From Nitrospira sp. bin75 (lineage in GTDB: Bacteria; Nitrospirota; Nitrospiria; Nitrospirales; UBA8639), in assembly GCA_002238765.1 (NCBI GenBank), contig MPMZ01000001.1:1-64000 (forward strand): a stretch of 64,000 nt of DNA, read 5' to 3'. This document shows positions 6,874 through 20,812 of this stretch, piece after piece (positions within the stretch are counted from its first letter, which is position 1; the number at the start of each line of letters is the position of its first letter). The notes beneath the pieces are model-generated. The model was not told the origin of the DNA. It searched no databases and saw only the letters and a program-made list of their open reading frames with translations. The position numbers and the translations under genes were made by a program.

Positions 6874-8478
6874 ATGATCAAGCTGATCATCACCGTGGTC
6901 GTGCTGTGGCCGATGCACCTGGGGCATGCGACGGACCTCACGCACGAACAACTGTATGCGGTGACGGCTCCGGGAGTGGTTTTCGTGTACGGAAGCTCCG
7001 GAACGATGGGGATGGTCGGGAGTGGGTCGATTGTTCGATCCGATGGATTGGTCCTGACGAATGCCCACGTGGTGCTCGACAATGCAACCGGTTCCCCGCA
7101 CGACCATCTATGGGTGGCCTTGAAGCCGGATCGCGTCACCGGCAATTTCGACGAGGATTTACAGAATCGATTCCCCGCCGAGGTGCAAGCGTTTAATCGA
7201 AAACTGGACCTAGCTCTGCTAAAAGTGACGAAGCCGCTTCCCGCCGTGCCCGTGTTACAGTTAGGCGATTCGGATCACGTCAAAATAGGAGCAGAGGTGG
7301 TGGCCATCGGCCATCCTGAGCAGGGCGGACTCTGGACCCTGACCACCGGCGTCATCAGCGCGTTTCGAGCAGATTACGGAGACGTCCTGGGCAAACATAT
7401 GTTCCAGACCGAAGCCAGCATGAACAGGGGCAATTCCGGCGGACCGCTCATCAATAAAGAAGGTCGACAAATTGGGGTGAACAGCGCGATCGCCCGACGA
7501 GCAAAAGATGGGTTGACCATTACGGACATCAATTTTTCGCTTCAATCGAACGTCGCCCTGAAGTGGATGGCCCAAGAAGGGGTCACGTTCGGAAAATCCC
7601 AGACAGGACGGCAAGCGAGTGGGAACGTCGCCGGCACCGTCACAACGGACGAGCCACCCAAGGCCACGCCGGCTCTTCCTCCCGAACGGCCATACCAGTT
7701 CCACCAAATCGACCGGTGGATGGCGCAGACGGCACAGGACCTGGACGACATGGGGCGTGAAATGCGGAAACATATTCGTGAGAAACGGGACCGCGATGGA
7801 GCCGGATCTGCGGAACAGGCGAGGAGCGCGTCGCCAAGCCGTCCCGGAACGGGGCGGGCACCACTTGCTGATACCTCCACCCGAACGGAGACAAGGCGTC
7901 CGGCTAGGGTGCAGAAGACGGAACGAATGGGAGAACCACCGGAATATCCACTGGACTGCGGTGTGTACGAGACGCAGACCCTCGATCTCACGTTGGCTCT
8001 GAAGGCCGGAAATTTCTTCTTCAACGTTGGACCGGAAATGGGCGTTACCTATCGTGCCGGCGTCGCCTGGGAAAAAGTCGTTCAGGGGACCATTGCCCGA
8101 TACGTGGAACTGTGCAACAGGTACAATGCCGGGATGGTCACCAGAGCGGAGTATGAAGTACGGCTGGAACATATCGAAGCCTTATACAGAGAAGCTCAAG
8201 AATTACAAGCGCAGTTGATGGAAGCCACACGGCGACGGTCCCGGTCGGGGTTTGATGAATTGGACCGGGAGGTGGGCAAGATGCGGGCAAGCCCGTCGAC
8301 TCGAAGAACCGAGTTGGAGAACAAAGTGGAACAATTGGCAAAGCACGTCGAAGGGCTGACCCCGATCGGGCAACCCCTCGAACCATCTTCGCCCTGCCCC
8401 CCCACCGGATATGCTCGGGGCGCCGGGAGCCAAATTCGAGTCCGAAGAAACGTGTTAAAAAAAGAAAAACAACGATGA
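6874..8478 (+). CDS. Exported trypsin-like serine protease (S1C/DegP-like, no PDZ)
   Basis: A 534-residue protein with an N-terminal signal peptide (about residues 1-19) and a trypsin-like protease domain (about 22-230). The catalytic triad is visible: His65 in LTNAHVVLD, Asp112 in RKLDLALLKV and Ser188 in MNRGNSGGPL. DegP/DegQ relatives normally carry one or two PDZ domains. Here the C-terminal half instead is a proline-rich, basic linker and a helical segment (EYEVRLEHIEALYREAQELQ) with no recognisable PDZ. It probably acts in the periplasm. It lies between exported proteins and a CHASE2 sensor and may be regulated with them. Catalytic assignment is strong; substrate unknown. Confidence 0.85.
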   Translation: MIKLIITVVVLWPMHLGHATDLTHEQLYAVTAPGVVFVYGSSGTMGMVGSGSIVRSDGLVLTNAHVVLDNATGSPHDHLWVALKPDRVTGNFDEDLQNRFPAEVQAFNRKLDLALLKVTKPLPAVPVLQLGDSDHVKIGAEVVAIGHPEQGGLWTLTTGVISAFRADYGDVLGKHMFQTEASMNRGNSGGPLINKEGRQIGVNSAIARRAKDGLTITDINFSLQSNVALKWMAQEGVTFGKSQTGRQASGNVAGTVTTDEPPKATPALPPERPYQFHQIDRWMAQTAQDLDDMGREMRKHIREKRDRDGAGSAEQARSASPSRPGTGRAPLADTSTRTETRRPARVQKTERMGEPPEYPLDCGVYETQTLDLTLALKAGNFFFNVGPEMGVTYRAGVAWEKVVQGTIARYVELCNRYNAGMVTRAEYEVRLEHIEALYREAQELQAQLMEATRRRSRSGFDELDREVGKMRASPSTRRTELENKVEQLAKHVEGLTPIGQPLEPSSPCPPTGYARGAGSQIRVRRNVLKKEKQR

Positions 8479-8546
8479 CGGGTGAAGGCGGAACGCAGGC
8501 GCCGGAACGGAAGAATTGGCAATACGGCGACGAAGGCGGATAACTC

Positions 8547-11372
8547 GTGCGATCAAAACTCCTGAAAGCCGGCATAGCAGGAATTAGCGCATCCTTGTTG
8601 ATCGCCGCATTGGGATGGGCCTTCCCTGATCTGGTTCGATCGTTGGAGCAGACCACGTATGATTGGCGACTTCGTTGGCAAAGCCAGGGGCCGACCCATC
8701 CGGGGCTCGTGCTCATAGGGCGCGATGCCAAAAGCGATGAGGCCCTGGGCCAAGGCATGTGGGATCGTGCCGTGTTTGCCCGTGTGATCGAAGGGTTGGG
8801 GCGAGCGGGGGCGAAGGTGATCGCCCTGGACTTTCACTTTGCCGGGGAGAGTCCGCCCGAACGCGGCGGGGTCGAAAGCGACCATATGCTGGTGGCCGTT
8901 ACGCACGCCGCCGGCAATCTTATTTATCCGTTTCCGGTGATCCCCTCCAGTCCTTCATCACGCGTGTCGGGATCACGCGAATCCGGACTGCCACCGGTTC
9001 TTGAGCAGGCGATGTCTCGCGTTGCCCTGAAGGTCTCTGCCGAGGTGCTTCAGGCGTTGCCTGCCGTACACCCGCTGAACGGGACAATGCCGGCACTGCT
9101 CAAAGAGGCGGTTGGACTCGGTCATATCGGCACATTCTCTGACGACGATGGGGTGTTTCGCCGGGTACCGGTTGCGGTCAACACTGGAGGCCATGCGCTT
9201 CCCGCCTTTGGGTTGGCCATGGTTGCAGCCTATTTGGACGTTGCCCCCGAGGACGTTGTAATCATCCCCGGAGACAAGCTGGTCTTGCGCCAAGCGACTT
9301 GGCCGGACCAAAGGGTGCACGATCTGGCCGTGCCTATCGATGACCAAGGCAGGCTCCTGATCCACTATGCCGGCCGCTGGACCGATGGGCCTTTTTCATA
9401 TTTTTCTTTTAAAGATATCCGGGATGCGATTGAAGAGGAACGGCTGGACGAATTGAGCAGACACGTCGAAGGGAAGATGGTGCTCATTCTTCACGCGGGC
9501 TTAGCGTCGGACAAGCGTCAGACGCCTTTGGAACATGGAGCGCCGGGTGGGTTTGTCCATGCGAATATGGTGAATACCCTTCTTCAAGAAAACCCGTTTC
9601 ATTCGGTCTCAACTGCCGTGGCGAGTCTGCTCGGTATGGTGGTAGCCTGTGCGGCAGCCTGGCTGATCCTGACATTTCAAGGGTGGCTGGGGGCAGTTAC
9701 CGTAGCCGGGCTGGCCGTAGGATACGTGGGGCTGACGTTCGCCGTTCTCACATATGGACACGTGGTGCTCCCGCTGCTGGGTCCGGTGAGTGCTCTGGTG
9801 CTGGCCGCAGGCGGTGCTTTGGGGTGGACGACCAGGACCGCGACGCGCCGGGTCGAACGCCTGGAATCGGCTGTCTTGGAGTCGGAACGCGAGTTAAGTG
9901 AGACGCGCCGGTCCCTGGCACATCATGAATGCGTCGCTGAACATACGTTGGAAGAGTTGGAGACGTTGAAGGCTGAGGCCGGTGTGGCCGCAGAGCAACA
10001 CCAGGAAGCCGCCCAACGGATCGAAGCGCTGCAAACTGAGTTGACTGTGGCCCAGACGTGCGCCGATTCCGCGCGGCGTCACATCCGTGAGTTGGAAACG
10101 CGACTGGCGCAGGTGACGGCTGGGACGGTTTCCGCTTCGCCGCCGTCGTCGGAAGAAATGAAAGCCCTTCAGCAGGAAGCTGAATTTTTGGGGCTGATCA
10201 CCAGAGACGTGCGGATCTTGTACGTCCTGCGGGATTTGAAAAAAGTCGCAAGAACGTTGACCCCCGTGCTCCTCTTGGGGGAAACCGGTACAGGAAAAGA
10301 AGTGCTTGCCCATGCGGCGCATCGCTTGAGCCCACGCGCAAGCAAGCCGTTTCTTGCGGTGAACGTCGCGGCGTTGGCACCCGACCTGGTGGAGAGCGAA
10401 TTGTTCGGGCATGTGCGAGGGGCGTTCACGGGAGCCGACCGGGAACGAAAAGGATTGTTTGAGCAAGCCGACGGAGGCACGCTGTTCTTGGATGAAATTG
10501 GAGAACTGACGCCCGCGCTCCAGGTCAAACTGCTCAGGGTGTTGCAGGAACAGACGTTTCAACGCGTAGGCGGGACGGAATCGGTCCGCGTAGACGTTCG
10601 GATTATCGCGGCCACCAACCGGGAACTCCGTCAGGGTGTGGCCGAGGGGTGGTTCCGGAAAGATCTGTACTTTCGGCTGCGCGGTATTGAATTTCGGCTT
10701 CCACCGTTGCGGGAACGTCGGGAGGATATCGCGGTGTTGGCCGACCGCTTTGTGCAAGAGGCGGCGGCAAAGCTGGAGCGGCCTGAGGTGGTCCTGTCAC
10801 AAGGCGCTCTCCGGCACTTGGCCCGGTGGGCGTGGCCGGGGAATATCCGTGAACTCAAAAGTTGTCTGGAGCGAGCCGTCGTCTTGGCCGAGGGGAAAAT
10901 CATCACCGAAGACGATCTTCAATTGGACCGGGAGTCCGAAGAGACCTGGGTGGGCAGTGGGATAGAGTCCACGCAGGCGTTTGACGTGCAAGGGGACACG
11001 GCCGTGCTCCTCGCTCTTCGCCGTCACGCCTTCGACATGCAAGCCACTGCGCAGGCCCTGAGTTGGGATCGCAGCACGGTGACCCAACGGCTCAAGGGGA
11101 TGTGTTTCGCCGCGTTGGTCGAGCATGACGGCGATCGGAGAGCCGCGGCCGCGGCCCTGGCCGGCACGCAGGCCTTGACCCGGGTCGTGGAAGTCAAAGT
11201 GGAAGAATACGCCGACAATCTGATGAAGGTCGTGGCTCGTCATGCCGGTACCGAGTCCGCCCAGGCCGAATGCCGCCGCCGGTTCAAAAATCTGCCGGAG
11301 CGCTATCTGCCAGCCGTGGAGACGCTGATCCGCCGCCGATTCGAGGGTGCCCTTGGAGAAGCCAACCCCTAA
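8547..11372 (+). CDS. CHASE2-domain, membrane-bound sigma-54-dependent transcriptional activator
   Basis: A 941-residue protein starting at GTG. In order: an N-terminal membrane segment; an extracytoplasmic CHASE2 sensor (about 30-350, with YDWRLRW and ALDFHFAGE typical of the family); three close transmembrane helices (about 355-430); a long coiled coil (about 435-540); and an AAA+ sigma-54 interaction domain (about 550-790). The AAA+ domain has Walker A GETGTGKE (about 577), the sigma-54-contacting GAFTGA loop (about 624) and Walker B LFLDEIGE (about 645). The C terminus has helix-turn-helix-like segments (ATAQALSWDRSTVTQRL; RAAAAALAG) rather than a textbook Fis domain. It would sense an envelope or external signal and activate sigma-54 promoters, though no clear -24/-12 element was found in the neighbouring gaps. 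Fusion of CHASE2 directly to a sigma-54 activator is uncommon. Confidence 0.88.
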   Translation: MRSKLLKAGIAGISASLLIAALGWAFPDLVRSLEQTTYDWRLRWQSQGPTHPGLVLIGRDAKSDEALGQGMWDRAVFARVIEGLGRAGAKVIALDFHFAGESPPERGGVESDHMLVAVTHAAGNLIYPFPVIPSSPSSRVSGSRESGLPPVLEQAMSRVALKVSAEVLQALPAVHPLNGTMPALLKEAVGLGHIGTFSDDDGVFRRVPVAVNTGGHALPAFGLAMVAAYLDVAPEDVVIIPGDKLVLRQATWPDQRVHDLAVPIDDQGRLLIHYAGRWTDGPFSYFSFKDIRDAIEEERLDELSRHVEGKMVLILHAGLASDKRQTPLEHGAPGGFVHANMVNTLLQENPFHSVSTAVASLLGMVVACAAAWLILTFQGWLGAVTVAGLAVGYVGLTFAVLTYGHVVLPLLGPVSALVLAAGGALGWTTRTATRRVERLESAVLESERELSETRRSLAHHECVAEHTLEELETLKAEAGVAAEQHQEAAQRIEALQTELTVAQTCADSARRHIRELETRLAQVTAGTVSASPPSSEEMKALQQEAEFLGLITRDVRILYVLRDLKKVARTLTPVLLLGETGTGKEVLAHAAHRLSPRASKPFLAVNVAALAPDLVESELFGHVRGAFTGADRERKGLFEQADGGTLFLDEIGELTPALQVKLLRVLQEQTFQRVGGTESVRVDVRIIAATNRELRQGVAEGWFRKDLYFRLRGIEFRLPPLRERREDIAVLADRFVQEAAAKLERPEVVLSQGALRHLARWAWPGNIRELKSCLERAVVLAEGKIITEDDLQLDRESEETWVGSGIESTQAFDVQGDTAVLLALRRHAFDMQATAQALSWDRSTVTQRLKGMCFAALVEHDGDRRAAAAALAGTQALTRVVEVKVEEYADNLMKVVARHAGTESAQAECRRRFKNLPERYLPAVETLIRRRFEGALGEANP

Positions 11373-11502: not shown

Positions 11503-11576
11503 GGTGATATCAGTAAGGGGTATCCTACACGCGGGTAGTGGATATGCAGGGAGCACGTGACGGAAAGAGAAGCGAC

Positions 11577-14162
11577 ATGAGGCGAGCAATGGTGAGGAAT
11601 GCCGTGCTCATCGGCATGGTGCTGCTGTCGGGGCTCCTGACTGGAGAAACGGGGGCGGCATTTCTGAACCCGGACGGCGTGGCAGTGATCATCGGCAATC
11701 GAGCCTACCAGTACGAGGTGCCGCAGGTGACGTACGCGCACCGTGACGCCGAGGCTTTCTGGCACTATGTGATCGATGTGCTGGGCTTCGACCCGGAGAA
11801 CGTGATTCACGAGAAAGACGCGGATAAGGCCACCCTGGAACGGGTCTTCGGCAACAGGGACAGCCTGAAGGGGAGTGAACTCTGGCGGCGTCTGCATCAG
11901 AATGGCAACTCAGACGTGGTGGTCTTTTACTCGGGCCACGGGATTCCGGGCTTGAACGACAAGCGGGGCTACTTGCTGCCGGTAAACGCGCACCCGGACA
12001 CTGCGGAACTCAACGGCTATCCGATCGATGTGCTGTACGACAACCTGGTCAAGCTGAAGGACAAGCGGGAAGTACGGTCAGTCCACGTATTTCTTGATGC
12101 CTGTTTTTCAGGGGACAGCGGAGGCGGGCGGCTGATCGGGGCCACGAGCGCGATTCGCGTGGCCCCGCTAAAAGAGTTGCAAGGGTTAGCCTCACTGACG
12201 ATCCTGACCGCGGCGTCCGGCAAGGAGGTCGCCTCGTGGGACAAGACCGCGAAGCATGGGCTGTTCACGAATCATCTGCTGGATGCGCTCTATGGCGGGG
12301 CCGACGATAACGCGGACGGGCAAGTGACGGCGACGGAGACGAAGGCCTATCTGGATCGCCACATGACCCGGGCGGCCCGGCGGCTATACGGCCGGGTCCA
12401 GAACGCGGAATTGCGGGGCGTGGAGACAGCGGTGCTGGCCCGCGCGATGGGGGGACTATTTCCGGCGCGGCCGCTGATTGGCCCAGCGCGACAGGTGGGA
12501 GAGCGCTTCCGCGATTGCCCGACGTGTCCGGAGATGGTCGTGGTACCGGCGGGAAGCTATGAGATGGGGTCGGTTGACGGCGTGTACCTTACTGGGAAGC
12601 ACGAGTCGAATGCGCACCCGGTGCATCGAGTGACGATAGCCCAGCCGTTGGCCGTGGGGGTGTACGAGGTCACGCGAGGGGAATTTAGGCGGTTTGTAGA
12701 AGCGACAGGGTATTCGATGGGAAAAACCTGCAGTTGGCACGATCCCGGGTTTCCACAAACGGATCAGCATCCGGTGGTGTGTGTGAGTTGGAAAGACGCG
12801 CAGGCATACGTACGGTGGCTGTCGCAGGAGACGGGGCAGGCATACCGTCTGTTGAGCGAGGCGGAGTGGGAGTACGTGGCACGGGCGGGGACGCGCACCG
12901 CGCGATATTGGGGGCAAGGGATGTCGGATCAGTGTCGGTTTGCGAATGGAGTAGATGCCGCGCTGCTGAGAAGTGATGCGGGAAGAAAGCAGCTTAATGA
13001 TGACCATAAGGAATTTGCTGAGACCGTGAAGCAAGTTAGGAAAGGCATGGAGAATCCCGGCAAATTTGACTGGCATTATGAGAGGCAGGCCGTCGACTGC
13101 GATGACGGCTATGCGTGGACGAGTCCTGTGGGCGTGTATGGAGCGAATGCGTTTGGGTTGCACGACGTGCTGGGAAACGTGAGTGAGTGGGTACAGGATT
13201 GTTGGCATACCAATTACCACGGCGCATCGGTTGATGGGCGTTCGTGGGAGAGCGGAGACTGTTTGGAGAGCGTGAAACGGAAGCGGATTTTCGAGTGGAA
13301 ACGGAAAGATCTGAAACGCATACGACTGGAGCACGAACGGAAAGCTAAGGAGTGTACCGCTGGCTTCGCTGATTTCACTGACGACCTCATAGATTGTAGA
13401 GTTCGCGCTCTACGCTATTACAACGGTAACTTCGTTAATCCGGATCGCGCTATACGCTATTACAACGGTCACTTCTTTAATCAGGACGTTGTGGTTTTGC
13501 GACGCGTGACACGGGGCGGCTCCTGGAGTGGAGAGGCGCTAAGCATCAGATCCGACGTGCGCGATGCAGCGACCACCCACGAGTATAGCGACATCGGCTC
13601 AGCAACCAAGGAACAATTCCTTCAACGCTATTACGACACCTTCCACGATGAGAAGTTTTCACATCTTGCCTACGATGAGTTCGCTGATTTTGTTGAGCGG
13701 GATTCACGGAAAGACCCGTCTGTCTTTGGGCAGATGGCTGAAGAGATGGAGGTGTCGAAACTCACTGCTACACCAAAATTCAAGCAAGAGTTCTACGACG
13801 CCTACCGGGACAAGTTCGCCAACGTCCCCTATGAGCAATTCAATCAAATTGTCGACGACAAACTCCTGCAAGATCCGAAGTTCCTAAAGCGTATGGGCGA
13901 TGACCTGTATACGTTCTACAGCCACAAAATGACCCGTGCGGAATTTGATGCCGAATTCATGGGTAGCAGCGTTGACAAATCTGATCCGACACTTCTGAAG
14001 CTTAGGAGCATGGCCGAGGGTTTGGTGCAAGCCAAGATCGCTGACGTCCCCATCCCACAAATATCAGAGAAAAACAGAGCATCGACTCCGGTATGGACGA
14101 TTACCCAGCAGAACAGCAGTTACATCACCATAGGCTTCCGTGTGGCCAGGACGCTTGATTAG
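11577..14162 (+). CDS. Exported caspase-like/FGE-sulfatase (C-type-lectin fold) fusion, paralogue 1
   Basis: An 861-residue protein with a signal peptide (cleavage near ETGAA-F). A caspase-like domain (about 30-300) has dyad His121 in YSGHGIPG and Cys176 in LDACFSGD. An FGE-sulfatase/SUMF-type domain begins about 305 (CPEMVVVPAGSYEMGS) and ends with GFRVARTLD. The FGE core carries three insertions absent from the paralogue at 14739: about 460-500, about 580-640 (with a small tandem repeat RALRYYNG/RAIRYYNG), and about 180 residues (about 675-850) between the RGGSW segment and the final strand. The insertions have lower GC than the host gene. ATG 11577 was chosen by alignment with the paralogue's GTG start. 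The protein should act outside the cytoplasm as a lectin-fold recognition module fused to a protease. It is probably not a true formylglycine-generating enzyme. Confidence 0.82.
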   Translation: MRRAMVRNAVLIGMVLLSGLLTGETGAAFLNPDGVAVIIGNRAYQYEVPQVTYAHRDAEAFWHYVIDVLGFDPENVIHEKDADKATLERVFGNRDSLKGSELWRRLHQNGNSDVVVFYSGHGIPGLNDKRGYLLPVNAHPDTAELNGYPIDVLYDNLVKLKDKREVRSVHVFLDACFSGDSGGGRLIGATSAIRVAPLKELQGLASLTILTAASGKEVASWDKTAKHGLFTNHLLDALYGGADDNADGQVTATETKAYLDRHMTRAARRLYGRVQNAELRGVETAVLARAMGGLFPARPLIGPARQVGERFRDCPTCPEMVVVPAGSYEMGSVDGVYLTGKHESNAHPVHRVTIAQPLAVGVYEVTRGEFRRFVEATGYSMGKTCSWHDPGFPQTDQHPVVCVSWKDAQAYVRWLSQETGQAYRLLSEAEWEYVARAGTRTARYWGQGMSDQCRFANGVDAALLRSDAGRKQLNDDHKEFAETVKQVRKGMENPGKFDWHYERQAVDCDDGYAWTSPVGVYGANAFGLHDVLGNVSEWVQDCWHTNYHGASVDGRSWESGDCLESVKRKRIFEWKRKDLKRIRLEHERKAKECTAGFADFTDDLIDCRVRALRYYNGNFVNPDRAIRYYNGHFFNQDVVVLRRVTRGGSWSGEALSIRSDVRDAATTHEYSDIGSATKEQFLQRYYDTFHDEKFSHLAYDEFADFVERDSRKDPSVFGQMAEEMEVSKLTATPKFKQEFYDAYRDKFANVPYEQFNQIVDDKLLQDPKFLKRMGDDLYTFYSHKMTRAEFDAEFMGSSVDKSDPTLLKLRSMAEGLVQAKIADVPIPQISEKNRASTPVWTITQQNSSYITIGFRVARTLD

Positions 14163-14669: not shown

Positions 14670-14738
14670 TTCGTCTTGCAGATTTTACGACATAATTACC
14701 ATGAGAAGGCAGTGCAACAGAGAGAAGGAAGGAGCGAC

Positions 14739-17327
14739 GTGAGGCGAACAGTAGTGAGGAACGGCGCGGTCGTTGCGGCGGTGTTGCTGTCGGGGCTCCT
14801 GACTGGAGAGACGGGGGCGGCGTTTCGGAACCCGGACGGCGTGGCGCTGATCATCGGCAATCGGGCCTACAAATACGACGTGCCGCAGGTGACGTACGCG
14901 CACCGCGACGCCGAGGCTTTCCGGCGCTATGTGGTGGACGTGTTGGGCTTCGACCCGGAGAACGTGATTCACGAGAAAGACGCGGATAAAGCCACTCTGG
15001 AACGGATCTTCGGCAACAGGGACAACCTGACGGGAAGTGAACTCTGGCGGCGTCTGCATCAGGATGGCAACTCGGACGTGGTGGTCTTTTACTCGGGCCA
15101 CGGAATTCCGGGCTTGAATGATAAACGGGGATATTTGTTACCGGTCAATGCGCACCCGGATACTGCGGAACTCAACGGCTATCCGATCGACGTGCTGTAC
15201 GACAACCTGGTCAAGTTGAAGGAGCAGAAGGCGGTGCGGTCGGTCCATGTGTTTCTTGACGCCTGTTTTTCAGGGGACAGCGGAGGCGGGCGGCTGATCG
15301 GGGCCACGAGCGCGATTCGCGTGGCCCCGCTAAGAGAGTCATCGGGCCTGGACAAACTGACGATCCTGACCGCGGCGTCCGGCAAGGAGGTCGCCTCGTG
15401 GGACAAGACCGCGAAGCATGGGCTGTTCACGCATCATCTGCTGGATGCGCTCTATGGCGGGGGCGACGCTGACGCGGACGGCCAAGTGACCGCAGCCGAG
15501 GCGAAGGCCTATCTGGATCGCCACATGACCCGGGCGGCCCGGCGGACATTCGGCCGAGTGCAGAACGCGGACTTGCGGGGCGTGGAGACAGCGGTGCTGG
15601 CTAGAGCAGTTGGGGGAATGTTTCCAGTGCGGCCAGGGATTGTTCCGGAGAGACAGCCAGGGCAGCGCTTCCGCGATTGCCCCACGTGCCCGGAGATGGT
15701 CGTGGTGCCGGCGGGGAGTTACGAAATGGGTTCCCCAGCATCGGAGGAGGGTCGTTTCGATTTGGAAGGCCCGGTACATCGGGTGACAATCGCTGACCCA
15801 TTCGCGGTAGGGATGTACGAGGTCACGCGGGCGGAGTTTGGGAGATTTGTAGAGGCGACAGGGTATTCGACGGGGGATGCCTGCTTGGCGTATGAAAGTG
15901 GCAAATTCGAGGAGCGTTCCGGTCGTCTTTGGCGCGATCCGGGGTTTGCACAAACCGATCAGCATCCGGTGGTGTGTGTGAGTTGGGAAGACGCGCAGGC
16001 GTACGTGCGGTGGCTGTCACAGGAGACGGGGCAAGCGTACCGGCTGTTGAGCGAGGCGGAGTGGGAGTACGTGGCGCGGGCGGGGACAACGACGCCGTTT
16101 CATACGGGTGCGACGATCTCGACGAAGCAAGCGAACTACGATGGAAATTATGCGTACGGCTCCGGTCGTCAGGGAGTATTCAGGGAGAGGACCGTGCCGG
16201 TTGGCCTGTTTTCACCAAATGCGTTTGGGCTTTACGACGTGCATGGAAACGTGTGGGAGTGGGTAGCGGATTGTTGGAATGAGAGTTACCGGGGGGCGCC
16301 GACTGATGGGATCGCCTGGGTGAGGGGGGACTGTAGTCGTCGCGTGTTGCGCGGCGGTGCCTGGGGCAACGACCCTTTGGTCATCCGCTCGGCCACCCGC
16401 ATCATGGGCGTCGCTGGAAGTCGTTACGACGACAACGGGTTCCGTGTTGCCCGGGCCGTAGGAGAAACGTTTCCGGTGCGGCCCCTGATTGATCTGAAGC
16501 GACAGCCAGGACAGCGCTTCCGCAATTGCCCGACATGCCCGGAGATGGTCGTGGTGCCCGTGGGGCGCTATGAGATGGGCTCACAGGCATCGGAGGCTGG
16601 ACGGAACGAGAATGAAGGCCCGGTGCATCGGGTGACACTGGAGCAGTCGTTCGCAGTGGGAATATACGAGGTCACGCGAGGGGAATTTGGGAGTTTTGTA
16701 GATGCAACGGGGTATTCAACGGGAAACTCCTGTTTCACTGTCGAGGGTGAGTTGGAAGAGCGCCAGGGCCGCCATTGGCGCGATCCGGGGTTTGCACAAA
16801 CCGATCAGCATCCGGTGGTGTGTGTGAGTTGGGAAGACGCGCAGGCGTACGTGCGGTGGCTGTCGCAGGAGACAGGACAGGGGTATCGGCTGTTGAGCGA
16901 GGCAGAGTGGGAATATGTGGCGCGGGCGGGGACGCGGACGGCGCGGTATTGGGGGCCTGGGGAGTCGGAACAGTGTCAATATGTGAATGGGATAGATGAG
17001 GCAGCGTTCTCGGGGAGGACTCCTGTCGGGTGTCACGATGGCTACGTTTACACATCTCCGGTGGGCAAGTACACGCCGAATGCGTTTGGATTGCATGATG
17101 TGCTAGGGAACGTGTTCGAGTGGGTAGCGGATTGCAGGCACGAGAGTTACAGAGGGGCTCCCAGTGATGGGAGCGCGTGGGAGAACGGAGCCTGTTCAAG
17201 GCGCGTGTTGCGCGGCGGCGCCTGGGTCAGCGGTCCGAAGCACCTTCGCTCGGCTAGTCGCAGCTGGGGCGGTTCTAGAAATCGCAACTACTTTAGCGGC
17301 TTCCGTGTGGCCCGGACGCTTAATTAA
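14739..17327 (+). CDS. Exported caspase-like protein with two FGE (C-type-lectin fold) domains, paralogue 2
   Basis: An 862-residue protein. GTG 14739 follows GAAGGAG by 5 nt, the best ribosome site in the region. Signal peptide, then a caspase-like domain with His121 (YSGHGIPG) and Cys176 (LDACFSGD), nearly identical at DNA level to paralogue 1. Two FGE-type domains follow (about 305-585 and about 595-862), each beginning CPEMVVVP and ending GFRVAR. Each has an RVLRGGAW block followed by a short, highly divergent stretch and GFRVAR, the position of the variable region in diversity-generating retroelement targets with this fold. Outside that stretch the two copies are very similar. Predicted extracytoplasmic protease with paired recognition domains. 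Confidence 0.84.
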   Translation: MRRTVVRNGAVVAAVLLSGLLTGETGAAFRNPDGVALIIGNRAYKYDVPQVTYAHRDAEAFRRYVVDVLGFDPENVIHEKDADKATLERIFGNRDNLTGSELWRRLHQDGNSDVVVFYSGHGIPGLNDKRGYLLPVNAHPDTAELNGYPIDVLYDNLVKLKEQKAVRSVHVFLDACFSGDSGGGRLIGATSAIRVAPLRESSGLDKLTILTAASGKEVASWDKTAKHGLFTHHLLDALYGGGDADADGQVTAAEAKAYLDRHMTRAARRTFGRVQNADLRGVETAVLARAVGGMFPVRPGIVPERQPGQRFRDCPTCPEMVVVPAGSYEMGSPASEEGRFDLEGPVHRVTIADPFAVGMYEVTRAEFGRFVEATGYSTGDACLAYESGKFEERSGRLWRDPGFAQTDQHPVVCVSWEDAQAYVRWLSQETGQAYRLLSEAEWEYVARAGTTTPFHTGATISTKQANYDGNYAYGSGRQGVFRERTVPVGLFSPNAFGLYDVHGNVWEWVADCWNESYRGAPTDGIAWVRGDCSRRVLRGGAWGNDPLVIRSATRIMGVAGSRYDDNGFRVARAVGETFPVRPLIDLKRQPGQRFRNCPTCPEMVVVPVGRYEMGSQASEAGRNENEGPVHRVTLEQSFAVGIYEVTRGEFGSFVDATGYSTGNSCFTVEGELEERQGRHWRDPGFAQTDQHPVVCVSWEDAQAYVRWLSQETGQGYRLLSEAEWEYVARAGTRTARYWGPGESEQCQYVNGIDEAAFSGRTPVGCHDGYVYTSPVGKYTPNAFGLHDVLGNVFEWVADCRHESYRGAPSDGSAWENGACSRRVLRGGAWVSGPKHLRSASRSWGGSRNRNYFSGFRVARTLN
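16341..16460 (+). other. Candidate hypervariable (VR-like) segment, first FGE domain
   Basis: From CGCGTGTTGCGCGGCGG to the FRVAR codons, this segment aligns without gaps to 17202-17315. Codon differences concentrate in first and second positions, consistent with adenine-directed mutagenesis of an AAY-rich template. No template repeat or reverse transcriptase is present in the window. Confidence 0.45.
17202..17315 (+). other. Candidate hypervariable (VR-like) segment, second FGE domain
   Basis: This is the 3' end of the caspase/double-FGE gene, the usual VR location in retroelement targets. Replaced residues relative to 16341-16460 are nearly all reachable from Asn (AAY) or Lys (AAG) codons by changing A only. 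Confidence 0.45.
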
Positions 17328-17546
17328 ATCGTGCCTGCTTCGGGAATTATTGCGAATAGTTGACGGTGTCTTTTCGCTGGACACGTGGTCTCCGATGATG
17401 ATTCACATCTTGACAGCGGAGAGACTGCGATGGAGGCTTACAGCAATTAATTTACATCAATCTGCTAAAATGGTTTCCTACTATATTGAGCGGCATATTT
17501 TAGGGAGAATAAAGAAATTCAGCGAATCAATTGTCATACCTTCTAC
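17328..17546. other. Gap between caspase/FGE paralogue 2 and the HEPN-like gene
   Basis: No gene or clear promoter is seen. The region is AT-richer than its flanks and may hold the lost 5' end of the following gene: the reading frame is open back to a TGA at 17487 but has no ATG or GTG. Confidence 0.4.
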
Positions 17547-18365
17547 TTGATCGGGTCGTACCTCACCCACACCGATGCCCTAATCGACGACCTCCTGAAG
17601 CTTCAGGACCCGGTGCCCTTGAGCAAGATCAAAGGCTATTTTGGCTCACTCAAGGGTCCCATCTATTGGATCACGTGTAAATTTCCGAACAACCCATTTC
17701 CCTCAATTGTCGAGAAGGCCGCGATAGACGTGGAAACGGCGCTAGACTGTATTGAGCAGAACCCCGATCCTGAGGGTACGGTAACACACATGGACCTCAG
17801 GCTACTCTCCGAAAAAATCCATGACCTGAAAACGGTCTTGACCTATCATGTCCCCACCCTGCCCATTTTTCTGGCATCTTCAAAGGGATTGTTTCACCCT
17901 GAGGATTTGAATGATAGAGCACACCATCATCTCCCTGAGGAAATCAGAAACCGACTTTCTGCGCAATGCCTACTCGACATCAAAGACTCGGGGCGCTGTC
18001 TCGCCTTCGACCTAGGAACGGCCAGCGTCTTTCATATGATGCGCGCCATTGAAGACGTGATGAAAGCCTACTATGCACACCTGACGGGAAAGACCATTGA
18101 ACAAGTCAACATGGAAGCCGAAGAAGAGAACGACAAAAAGAAAAAGATTGTTCAAACGTGGGGATCGTACATTGAAGCCTTAAAGAAGGCTAACGCAGAT
18201 CAGTTCATTGTCGCACAGCTTGATGAGATCAAAAATGTCTGTCGAAATCCCGTCTGTCACCCAGACGAGAATATGACCATAGAAGAAGCCTTGAGATTAT
18301 TTGGGATGGGAATTTTTATTATCGGTGAGATGGTTGCTCGAATTAACGGAGTTACTCATGGCTAA
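17547..18365 (+). CDS. HEPN-like domain protein
   Basis: A 272-residue protein from TTG 17547, or a slightly truncated gene, since no ATG/GTG lies in frame after the stop at 17487. AGGGAG at 17502-17507 is rather far upstream. The C-terminal half is helical: LGTASVFHMMRAIEDVMKAY resembles the first long helices of HEPN domains. The sequence R233-N-P-V-C-H238 fits the catalytic R-x4-6-H motif, including the polar residue after Arg. HEPN proteins are often RNA-cutting toxins or effectors in defence and stress systems. No MNT-type antitoxin partner is adjacent. Its place directly after the caspase/FGE pair suggests, but does not prove, a link. Confidence 0.6.
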   Translation: MIGSYLTHTDALIDDLLKLQDPVPLSKIKGYFGSLKGPIYWITCKFPNNPFPSIVEKAAIDVETALDCIEQNPDPEGTVTHMDLRLLSEKIHDLKTVLTYHVPTLPIFLASSKGLFHPEDLNDRAHHHLPEEIRNRLSAQCLLDIKDSGRCLAFDLGTASVFHMMRAIEDVMKAYYAHLTGKTIEQVNMEAEEENDKKKKIVQTWGSYIEALKKANADQFIVAQLDEIKNVCRNPVCHPDENMTIEEALRLFGMGIFIIGEMVARINGVTHG

Positions 18366-18544
18366 GAAAGTACGAGTGCAAACCATCGACATAGCTGAGT
18401 AGGCTTAATTTGGGTCTTCAATTTGTTGTCAACTATTCTGGACAATTCCAAATAGGTGATTCGTGGAGTTTGAATAGGATAAACGGTAAAGAGGTTGGTG
18501 AAAGCCTGCATGGAACGTCGAAAACACGCAGGGCAGCTAGGTTC

Positions 18545-20812
18545 ATGAAGACCGTGCGTGTTTACCCTCTGGTGCAGCTTGTGGCCGTGGCGGTTTTATT
18601 TTGGGGAGGGTGTGCGACCGGACCGGCACCGCGAGTCGATGACGGCTCATCGCTGTCTGAAGCGCGGCAGGCAAGCCAACGTTCCCAAGCCACTTCTTCG
18701 GGTGCAGCCATGCCTCGGCCATCCCCCAGGCAATCCATGGATCGGTTGATTCGTGAGATGGAGGGGAAGCCGTTGTTGCCGTCGCAGGAAGGGTCAGGGT
18801 CTGCCCTTCAGAAAACCCAAGACGTTCCACAGGCAGAAGTCCCCGTTGCAAGCCTGTCTGAGGGAGACTGCCCTCCGGTATGGTGGCAACGCGGGGACGC
18901 TTCTCGTTTTCTCGGCGGTATCGGAGGACCGGCGGAAAGCCGGGAATCGGCTGAAGCGCAGGCCCGGTTGGACATCGCCAAATCCATCGAAGTGGGCATC
19001 TCCGGTACGGACACGATTCAGACACGGGAAACCTCCGCTAAGGGATTCGAGTATGCCGTGAAATCGACGATCGTGGAACGCGTGAACCTTTCACTGACGG
19101 GGTTCTCCATTCCGAACGTCGGGAAATGTGGCAACCAGTGGTATGCCCGTGCCCGGTTGAATCGCGCCGAAGCGGAGAATGCCTGGCGTTCGGACTTACG
19201 AGGGCTTGATGCTGAAGCGGAAACGCTACGGACGTTCATTGGCGGTAAGAATAAACAACATAAGGACGCGTTTGCGCTGCTGTCGGCGCAGTATCGGTTG
19301 GCTGTTGCCCTGGAAACCGCGAACCAGATTACAAAACGGCTACCGCGACTGACGGGCAAACGAGAACCCGGGCTACTGCGTCAAGGCGACGTGATGACTG
19401 CCAAGCAGAATTATGAATCGTTGGTCCGTTCATTTCGAGTGGAACTTTTGATGGTCAAAGGGAACAAGCAACAAGCGGTCTTTGATCGCTCTTTGGAAGA
19501 TCCCCTGAAGGTCCGGCTTGTGGCGGGCCTGGGGGGAAAGGACGTGCCGGTCCCGGGGGTTCCGGTACGGTTTGCGTTTGACCGGGGCGAGGGCGAGGTT
19601 GATCCTCCCCTCGACTCGACCGACCACGAAGGCTACGCTCGTGCCAGGGTGCATCGCGTTGAACCGGCCGGGAACGCGGCTGACACGGAGGCTGTCATTA
19701 CCGCCCGCTTGCATGTCGCCGACCTTGATTTGGGTCTTCCTTCATCGGTTCACGAACTGTTTCGCAAACACGCGGACGCGCAAGTCCTTCGCTTTCGGAT
19801 TGGCACGCCTTTTCCTTGTTCGTCGCATAATCCCTTTGATAGTCCGCTGTATGCGTTGGCGTGCGATTTGGTCCGAAAGATCGATAGTTCCGTGGGGAAA
19901 CCCGCGATCGTTCGCGGTTTTGTTGAGCGTGAGTCCCGCGAGCCTCATCCGTTGAGTGCCCGGATTGAAGAAGCGTTGAAAGCCGGACTCGCGTTGACCG
20001 ATCAACTCCACGTCCTGGAGCTTCCGACTTCGGGGAACCCCTCCATTGCCCACGATGCGGAGGTGGAAGTGTCCGGGGTCTATGAACTGTATCGCGGCAA
20101 CCTCTTGGTCAAAGCCACGCTGACCCGACTGACCGATCACGGTCTGGAAAGCGCGAGTGAAACGACGATTCCCAGGGCGGCCGTGCCCAGGAAGGACTTT
20201 CTATCTTTGACTTCTTCCACGCATGCCTTGTCCTTGCTTCCCAAATATTCGGATTTCGCGACGCACGATGAATGGGTCGAGGCCTTCTGGCACTCTCACA
20301 ACCCGGAGCAGGAATTTCGGACGTGGATCAAGCCCCAACAATCGGTTTATCAGGATAACGAACACGCCGTCTTTTTCTTCAAGACTGAACGGGATTGTTA
20401 CCTCCGGGTGTTCACCATCGACGTATCCGGGACAGGAGCCGTGCTTCTTCCGAATACCTATCGACGGGATCTCCGGCAGACTTTCGTTCGCGCAAACGAG
20501 GGCTGGGTCTCGATCCCGGGTCCGGCTGATCAATTCACGCTACCGACTTCTCCCCCGTATGGCGGTGAACGGATTAAGACGATTTGCACGACTCGTGCAA
20601 TGCCCCTTATTCCCCCGGACTCCATCCGCGCTCTCGATGGTCATTCGCCGATGTTCGTCTTTTCACGCGACAATCAACGGTTCCGTGACGTGGGAGTGGG
20701 ATTTGCGCTCAGTGCCGGTGAATGGAGTGAAACGCACACGACGGTCAGCACCATCCCGAAAGGCCGGGACGCGACGCGAGGCCAGCGTGGGCTTGAGAGC
20801 CGTGGGTTTTAA
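18545..20812 (+). CDS. Large lipoprotein with LPP20-like and DUF4384 domains
   Basis: A 755-residue protein. ATG 18545 begins a clear lipoprotein signal peptide (VQLVAVAVLFWGGC, lipidated Cys about 22). A Ser/Pro-rich linker leads to an LPP20-like segment (about 110-210, WWQRGDASRFLGGIGGPAES then 'ARLNRAEAENAW'). Beta-rich middle domains include a GVPVRFAFDRGEGEV stretch typical of Ig-like big domains. The DUF4384 domain lies at about 620-720 (AVFFFKTERDCYLRVFTIDV, LLPNTYRR). DUF4384 is common in outer-membrane or envelope proteins linked to caspases and CHASE2 regulators. The 3' end runs into repeat DNA. Probably faces the periplasm or cell surface and works with the other exported proteins of the island. 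Confidence 0.75.
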   Translation: MKTVRVYPLVQLVAVAVLFWGGCATGPAPRVDDGSSLSEARQASQRSQATSSGAAMPRPSPRQSMDRLIREMEGKPLLPSQEGSGSALQKTQDVPQAEVPVASLSEGDCPPVWWQRGDASRFLGGIGGPAESRESAEAQARLDIAKSIEVGISGTDTIQTRETSAKGFEYAVKSTIVERVNLSLTGFSIPNVGKCGNQWYARARLNRAEAENAWRSDLRGLDAEAETLRTFIGGKNKQHKDAFALLSAQYRLAVALETANQITKRLPRLTGKREPGLLRQGDVMTAKQNYESLVRSFRVELLMVKGNKQQAVFDRSLEDPLKVRLVAGLGGKDVPVPGVPVRFAFDRGEGEVDPPLDSTDHEGYARARVHRVEPAGNAADTEAVITARLHVADLDLGLPSSVHELFRKHADAQVLRFRIGTPFPCSSHNPFDSPLYALACDLVRKIDSSVGKPAIVRGFVERESREPHPLSARIEEALKAGLALTDQLHVLELPTSGNPSIAHDAEVEVSGVYELYRGNLLVKATLTRLTDHGLESASETTIPRAAVPRKDFLSLTSSTHALSLLPKYSDFATHDEWVEAFWHSHNPEQEFRTWIKPQQSVYQDNEHAVFFFKTERDCYLRVFTIDVSGTGAVLLPNTYRRDLRQTFVRANEGWVSIPGPADQFTLPTSPPYGGERIKTICTTRAMPLIPPDSIRALDGHSPMFVFSRDNQRFRDVGVGFALSAGEWSETHTTVSTIPKGRDATRGQRGLESRGF

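Follow-up and report, generated by a model that had tools for sequence, protein, structure and literature searches.

Targets of diversity-generating retroelements (DGRs) that are linked to caspases are known from cyanobacteria and purple sulfur bacteria. Cyanobacterial DGR variable proteins carry orthocaspase-like domains, in which a caspase-type protease is fused to a C-terminal variable domain of the C-type-lectin fold, and remote as well as non-diversified paralogues of these proteins are common (PMC7517822). In the DGR conflict systems of multicellular bacteria, such as Thiohalocapsa PB-PSB1, FGE-type lectin folds were proposed as sensors, together with caspase-like effectors and targets in trans (PMC10907252). 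The FGE/C-type lectin fold is also that of TvpA, the Treponema denticola variable protein 1 (2y3c), which has no caspase domain. On the target side, phage BPP-1 requires a hairpin/cruciform of 24 bp downstream of the variable region, and the IMH and hairpin were defined experimentally in that system (PMC3240598). A literature search for dead or degenerate DGRs returned nothing useful.

The window, that is, the whole stretch of 64,000 nucleotides from Nitrospira sp. bin75 that was analysed, lies on contig C115 of an assembly of 3.04 Mb in 115 contigs (97.8% complete). It contains a gene for a predicted exported caspase with two FGE domains (gene B) and a paralogue (gene A), with the following features:

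11538..14162, + strand: gene A, paralogue with a caspase and one FGE domain, just upstream of gene B
14739..17327, + strand: gene B, predicted exported caspase with two FGE domains (signal peptide as read from the sequence)
14838..15464, + strand: caspase (Peptidase_C14) domain of gene B, E 2.6e-15
15687..16454, + strand: FGE domain 1 (D1) of gene B
16365..16436, + strand: D1 variable region, 24 codons, read as a probable fossil DGR variable region (VR)
16536..17315, + strand: FGE domain 2 (D2), C-terminal in gene B
17226..17297, + strand: D2 variable region, 24 codons, likewise read as a probable fossil DGR VR

The gene B frame comprises 883 codons (14676-17327) and is open from a TTG at 14676, the likely start being the GTG at 14739, which precedes the signal-peptide-like stretch. 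Gene B contains the p20-like domain with an intact His-Cys dyad by which orthocaspases (Peptidase_C14) are recognised, and we assign the dyad, by inspection of the translation, to the His of YSGHG (15099-15101) and the Cys of DACFSG (15264-15266). The protein is probably an exported orthocaspase with putative proteolytic activity, and it is probably still made and functional. As in active DGR targets, the variable region stands near the end of a domain with a C-type-lectin/FGE fold. The structure model of D2 (pLDDT 78) has PvdO (5hha) as its best match among solved structures, and TvpA (PDB 2y3c) is also a clear match, by sequence (E 1.4e-7) and by fold (E 1.4e-12, TM 0.68). An NCBIfam PvdO match above cut-off was set aside, its score being the sum of the two domains. 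The cyanobacterial proteins are mostly predicted to be cytosolic (PMC7517822), whereas gene B has a signal-peptide-like N-terminus, a tandem pair of FGE domains and neither reverse transcriptase (RT) nor template in its genome; in Thiohalocapsa PB-PSB1 the sensor is linked to STAND or MoxR (PMC10907252), whereas gene B would join protease and FGE in one exported chain, whose variable loops we read as fossils. Gene B belongs to a known kind of DGR target, of which it would be a non-autonomous, probably dead representative.

An earlier note on this DNA had described the two FGE domains as differing mainly between RVLRGGAW and GFRVAR, and its counts were reproduced by codon alignment: among the 24 codons of the loop, 17 encode different amino acids, and in 12 of these 17 the third base is the same. 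The loop is the top-scoring 24-codon segment of the two domains. By codon position, D1 and D2 differ 9/12/8 times within it and 44/40/99 times in the remaining 236 codons (Fisher p = 0.009, and p = 0.026 for the same-third-base comparison). A ratio of at least 12/17 was observed in ~5% of the 4,248 FGE pairs compared, which makes it unusual, not unique. The same note held that nearly all variable codons can be derived by changing A, a statement that is unfalsifiable alone; the third-position test is more useful, and there the D1 and D2 loops differ at 8 of 24 codons, none of the differences involving A. This is near the 45% of the domain bodies, while in genomes whose template was identified the loops differ pairwise at only 0-4 of 24 third positions. 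No homogenisation of silent sites is seen between the D1 and D2 loops. In addition, D1 and D2 are ~71% identical, hardly more than D1 and FGE domains of other phyla (68%), so the two loops may have had different template histories.

DGR ancestry of the loops is supported by a codon imprint, by a selective DNA match and by the phylogenetic context. A loop written from an AAY column must have an NNY codon there, whatever the amino acid, and we examined 12 loop columns that read AAC or AAT in the templates of relatives (G013 and the Candidatus Binatia locus L120; the third column is AAA in these and AAT in G004). All 24 codons of D1 and D2 at these columns (12/12 each) are NNY (simulated p 7e-4), as expected of an active target. 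An AGY serine is one A change away from AAY, and the five serines at these columns are all AGY, whereas the loops use TCN for their other serines and AGY accounts for 31% of the serine codons in the window. With codons drawn at the window's own usage, the two observations have a joint p of ~2e-5. Some FGE domains from this genome and from relatives, such as L018, L063 and L073, have NNY at 6-8 of the 12 columns and others at 10-11, so the imprint is evidence, short of proof. The template of G004, used as a DNA query in this genome, gave matches of more than 110 bases at the loops of an FGE gene on contig C44, of D2 and of D1, and at no other FGE gene. A base-by-base fit of D1 and D2 to the templates of G004, G013 and L120 (27-32 of 43-44 sites matched) was rejected as proof, with p values of 0.002-0.15 and an equal score for the constant FGE paralogue on C82. 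Since D1 and D2 do no better than this paralogue at non-A sites, it is the imprint, the selective match and the context that carry the DGR link.

The earlier proposal of a DGR variable region stands as a statement of ancestry and is unsupported as one of present activity. Its suggestion that a retroelement acts in trans today found no support: silent sites are unhomogenised, the hairpin behind the variable region is absent, and profile searches (RVT_1 and DGR-RT) of the host genome (G000) were empty, while the same DGR-RT profile finds RTs in G003, G004 and G013. Avd was not found above cut-off in this genome, nor was a template repeat matching all non-A sites; the absence of RT and of template are two of the three observations that the note itself had named as speaking against activity. 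An Avd-like match on C50 (L214:4865-5227) is below cut-off and was rejected as a four-helix-bundle ORF in another frame of a 992-residue DNA-methylase-like protein. Two matches of 16-17 bases to the VR flanks, on C45 and C5, were discarded as template candidates, the adjoining DNA having no template-like stretch. Since the machinery and the docking signal are gone from the genome, the loops look frozen.

Complete-looking DGRs of related type are present in other genomes. That of Candidatus Binatia (L120:875-4992) has, in this order, a caspase/peptidoglycan-binding/FGE target, Avd (NF033474, E 3.6e-28), RT (with IGNLTSQ and YVDD motifs) and template; the loop of the target matches its own template at 44/44 non-A sites and is changed at 14/28 A sites. 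This target is exported-looking, and the architecture that had been proposed from gene B, a caspase-FGE protein as DGR target, is thereby confirmed in another phylum. Loops on other contigs of the same genome (L117:548-643 and L131:12942-13037) also match the template at 44/44 non-A sites, as expected of trans targets. In G004, an ankyrin-FGE target of a complete-looking DGR likewise matches its template at 44/44 non-A sites. G013 (L070:1058-15782) has an RT, with the template lying at its 3' end, and ~10 FGE loops that match the template. Three of these loops belong to one tandem-FGE protein (L070 10618-13119), one in each of its three domains, and provide a precedent for a single chain with two variable loops; the internal loops of this protein match 35 and 38 of 43 template sites, against 40 for the terminal loop. 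No relatives were found on viral contigs.

Several template-matched VRs, in G004, G013, G003 and Binatia, have a target-side element behind them, as does a similar loop (L118): a conserved ACGCTCACCCC.TGA.TC stretch spans the stop codon and precedes a GC-rich hairpin of 9-11 bp. The sites and the corresponding stretch of D2 are:

L120:3230-3310: stop-codon element and hairpin
L117:644-724: stop-codon element and hairpin
L070:8410-8490: stop-codon element and hairpin
L071:9865-9945: stop-codon element and hairpin
L074:6122-6202: stop-codon element and hairpin
L118:11120-11200: stop-codon element and hairpin
17307..17387, + strand: post-VR stretch of D2, which keeps only GCCCGGACGCTTA of the target-side element and has no hairpin

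The role of this hairpin would resemble that of the BPP-1 hairpin, which likewise stands behind the VR of the target (PMC3240598), but in this clade it starts ~50 nt after GFR, behind the stop-codon stretch. The motif was not seen after the templates examined. The Binatia loop L131:12942 has an imperfect hairpin only, and in the G013 tandem protein coding sequence continues after both internal loops, where the stop-codon element is absent. No hairpin follows D1, D2 or the loop of gene A, so that gene B does not show the IMH with downstream hairpin found on the target side of active targets. Element and hairpin are common to Nitrospirales, Binatia and a gammaproteobacterial MAG.

Intermediate stages of decay were observed in congeners. 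In G003 (L074:4802-5856, C103) the RT is broken by frame changes, possibly a sequencing error of a MAG contig, and ends in repeat sequence, while an Avd-like ORF is kept; the 12 kb read around the broken RT yielded no template, and the VR agrees with the G004 template at 41/44 non-A sites, one extra codon left out. Loops without RT agree with the same template at 40/44 (G008) and 38/44 (C44 of the present genome) non-A sites, and the post-VR sequences of both keep the first half of the element only, the hairpin being lost. D1 and D2 are the most eroded loops of this series, which leads, within one genus, from an intact DGR over a broken RT and a lost hairpin to frozen loops, and which offers a setting for asking how a diversified sensor becomes fixed after the loss of its mutator.

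The reading that we consider likely is that the exported caspase is intact apart from its D1 and D2 loops, which are DGR variable regions preserved as fossils. The ancestral FGE domains would have been targets of the DGR type that congeners and Candidatus Binatia still carry. In these relatives, retrohoming would proceed by RT and Avd copying an A-rich template, randomising its adenines and writing the copy into the FGE loop between RGGSW and GFR, at a target marked by the downstream element with its GC-rich hairpin. RT, Avd, template and hairpin would then have been lost in this lineage, in an order that the congeners may reflect, and the loops would have frozen and accumulated ordinary silent substitutions. 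The two fixed lectin-fold domains may bind ligands and may control or position the protease. Exported-looking caspase-FGE targets are thereby added from Nitrospirales, in a marine Nitrospira-type bacterium and probably as fossils, and from Candidatus Binatia, as part of a complete-looking DGR.

We regard it as unlikely that D2, and perhaps D1, is an active target rewritten in trans by a DGR located on a contig, plasmid or phage that the assembly lacks. The fragmentation of the assembly into 115 contigs and the repetitive nature of DGR regions leave room for such an element, trans action is plausible in Binatia, given the full agreement of VRs on other contigs with the L120 template (44/44 non-A sites), and incomplete DGR loci with remote targets diversified in trans have been described (PMC10907252); on the other hand, the genome is 97.8% complete and yielded neither RT, Avd nor template, the target-side element is mostly lost and D2 is followed by no hairpin, and the two loops differ at a third of their third positions (8/24). 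It is rather improbable that some cells keep diversifying this secreted caspase and its two hypervariable lectin domains in trans, through a DGR that escaped the assembly; if it were so, these presumed symbionts would have a diversifiable extracellular sensor-protease. Quite unlikely, in our view, is an origin of the loops without any DGR, as ordinary ligand-facing FGE loops that point mutation and selection drove apart: loops have diverged to a comparable extent in many FGE pairs and the conserved paralogue on C82 fits foreign templates equally, but the codon imprint and the selective template match would be unexpected, and L018, L063 and L073 reach only 6-8 NNY codons out of 12. A recombination chimera, in which the FGE modules of gene B had been diversified in other bacteria before it acquired them and gene B itself never served as a substrate, appears highly improbable. 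The absence of gene B from the syntenic place in G011 and the 68% identity of D1 to FGE domains of other phyla are in its favour; however, such a chimera is compatible with fossil VRs anyway, and the caspase half of gene B is 83% identical in DNA to the neighbouring gene A, which suggests local duplication.

At the syntenic locus of the congener G011, gene A and the DUF4384 gene are kept and the segment corresponding to window positions ~14696-18540, with gene B, is missing; none of the genomes searched yielded a gene B orthologue that has both FGE domains. In gene A, ~165 residues are inserted between the VR-like stretch and GFRVAR, an insert also present in G011, and changes in the loop between species fall mainly on third positions (2/1/6 by codon position). 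Because of this interruption and of the predominance of third-position changes, the gene A loop is taken to be constant too. Upstream of the caspase pair, the window encodes a trypsin-like protease and a CHASE2 sigma-54 activator (6874-11372), and a DUF4384 protein is encoded downstream of the pair (18410-20812).
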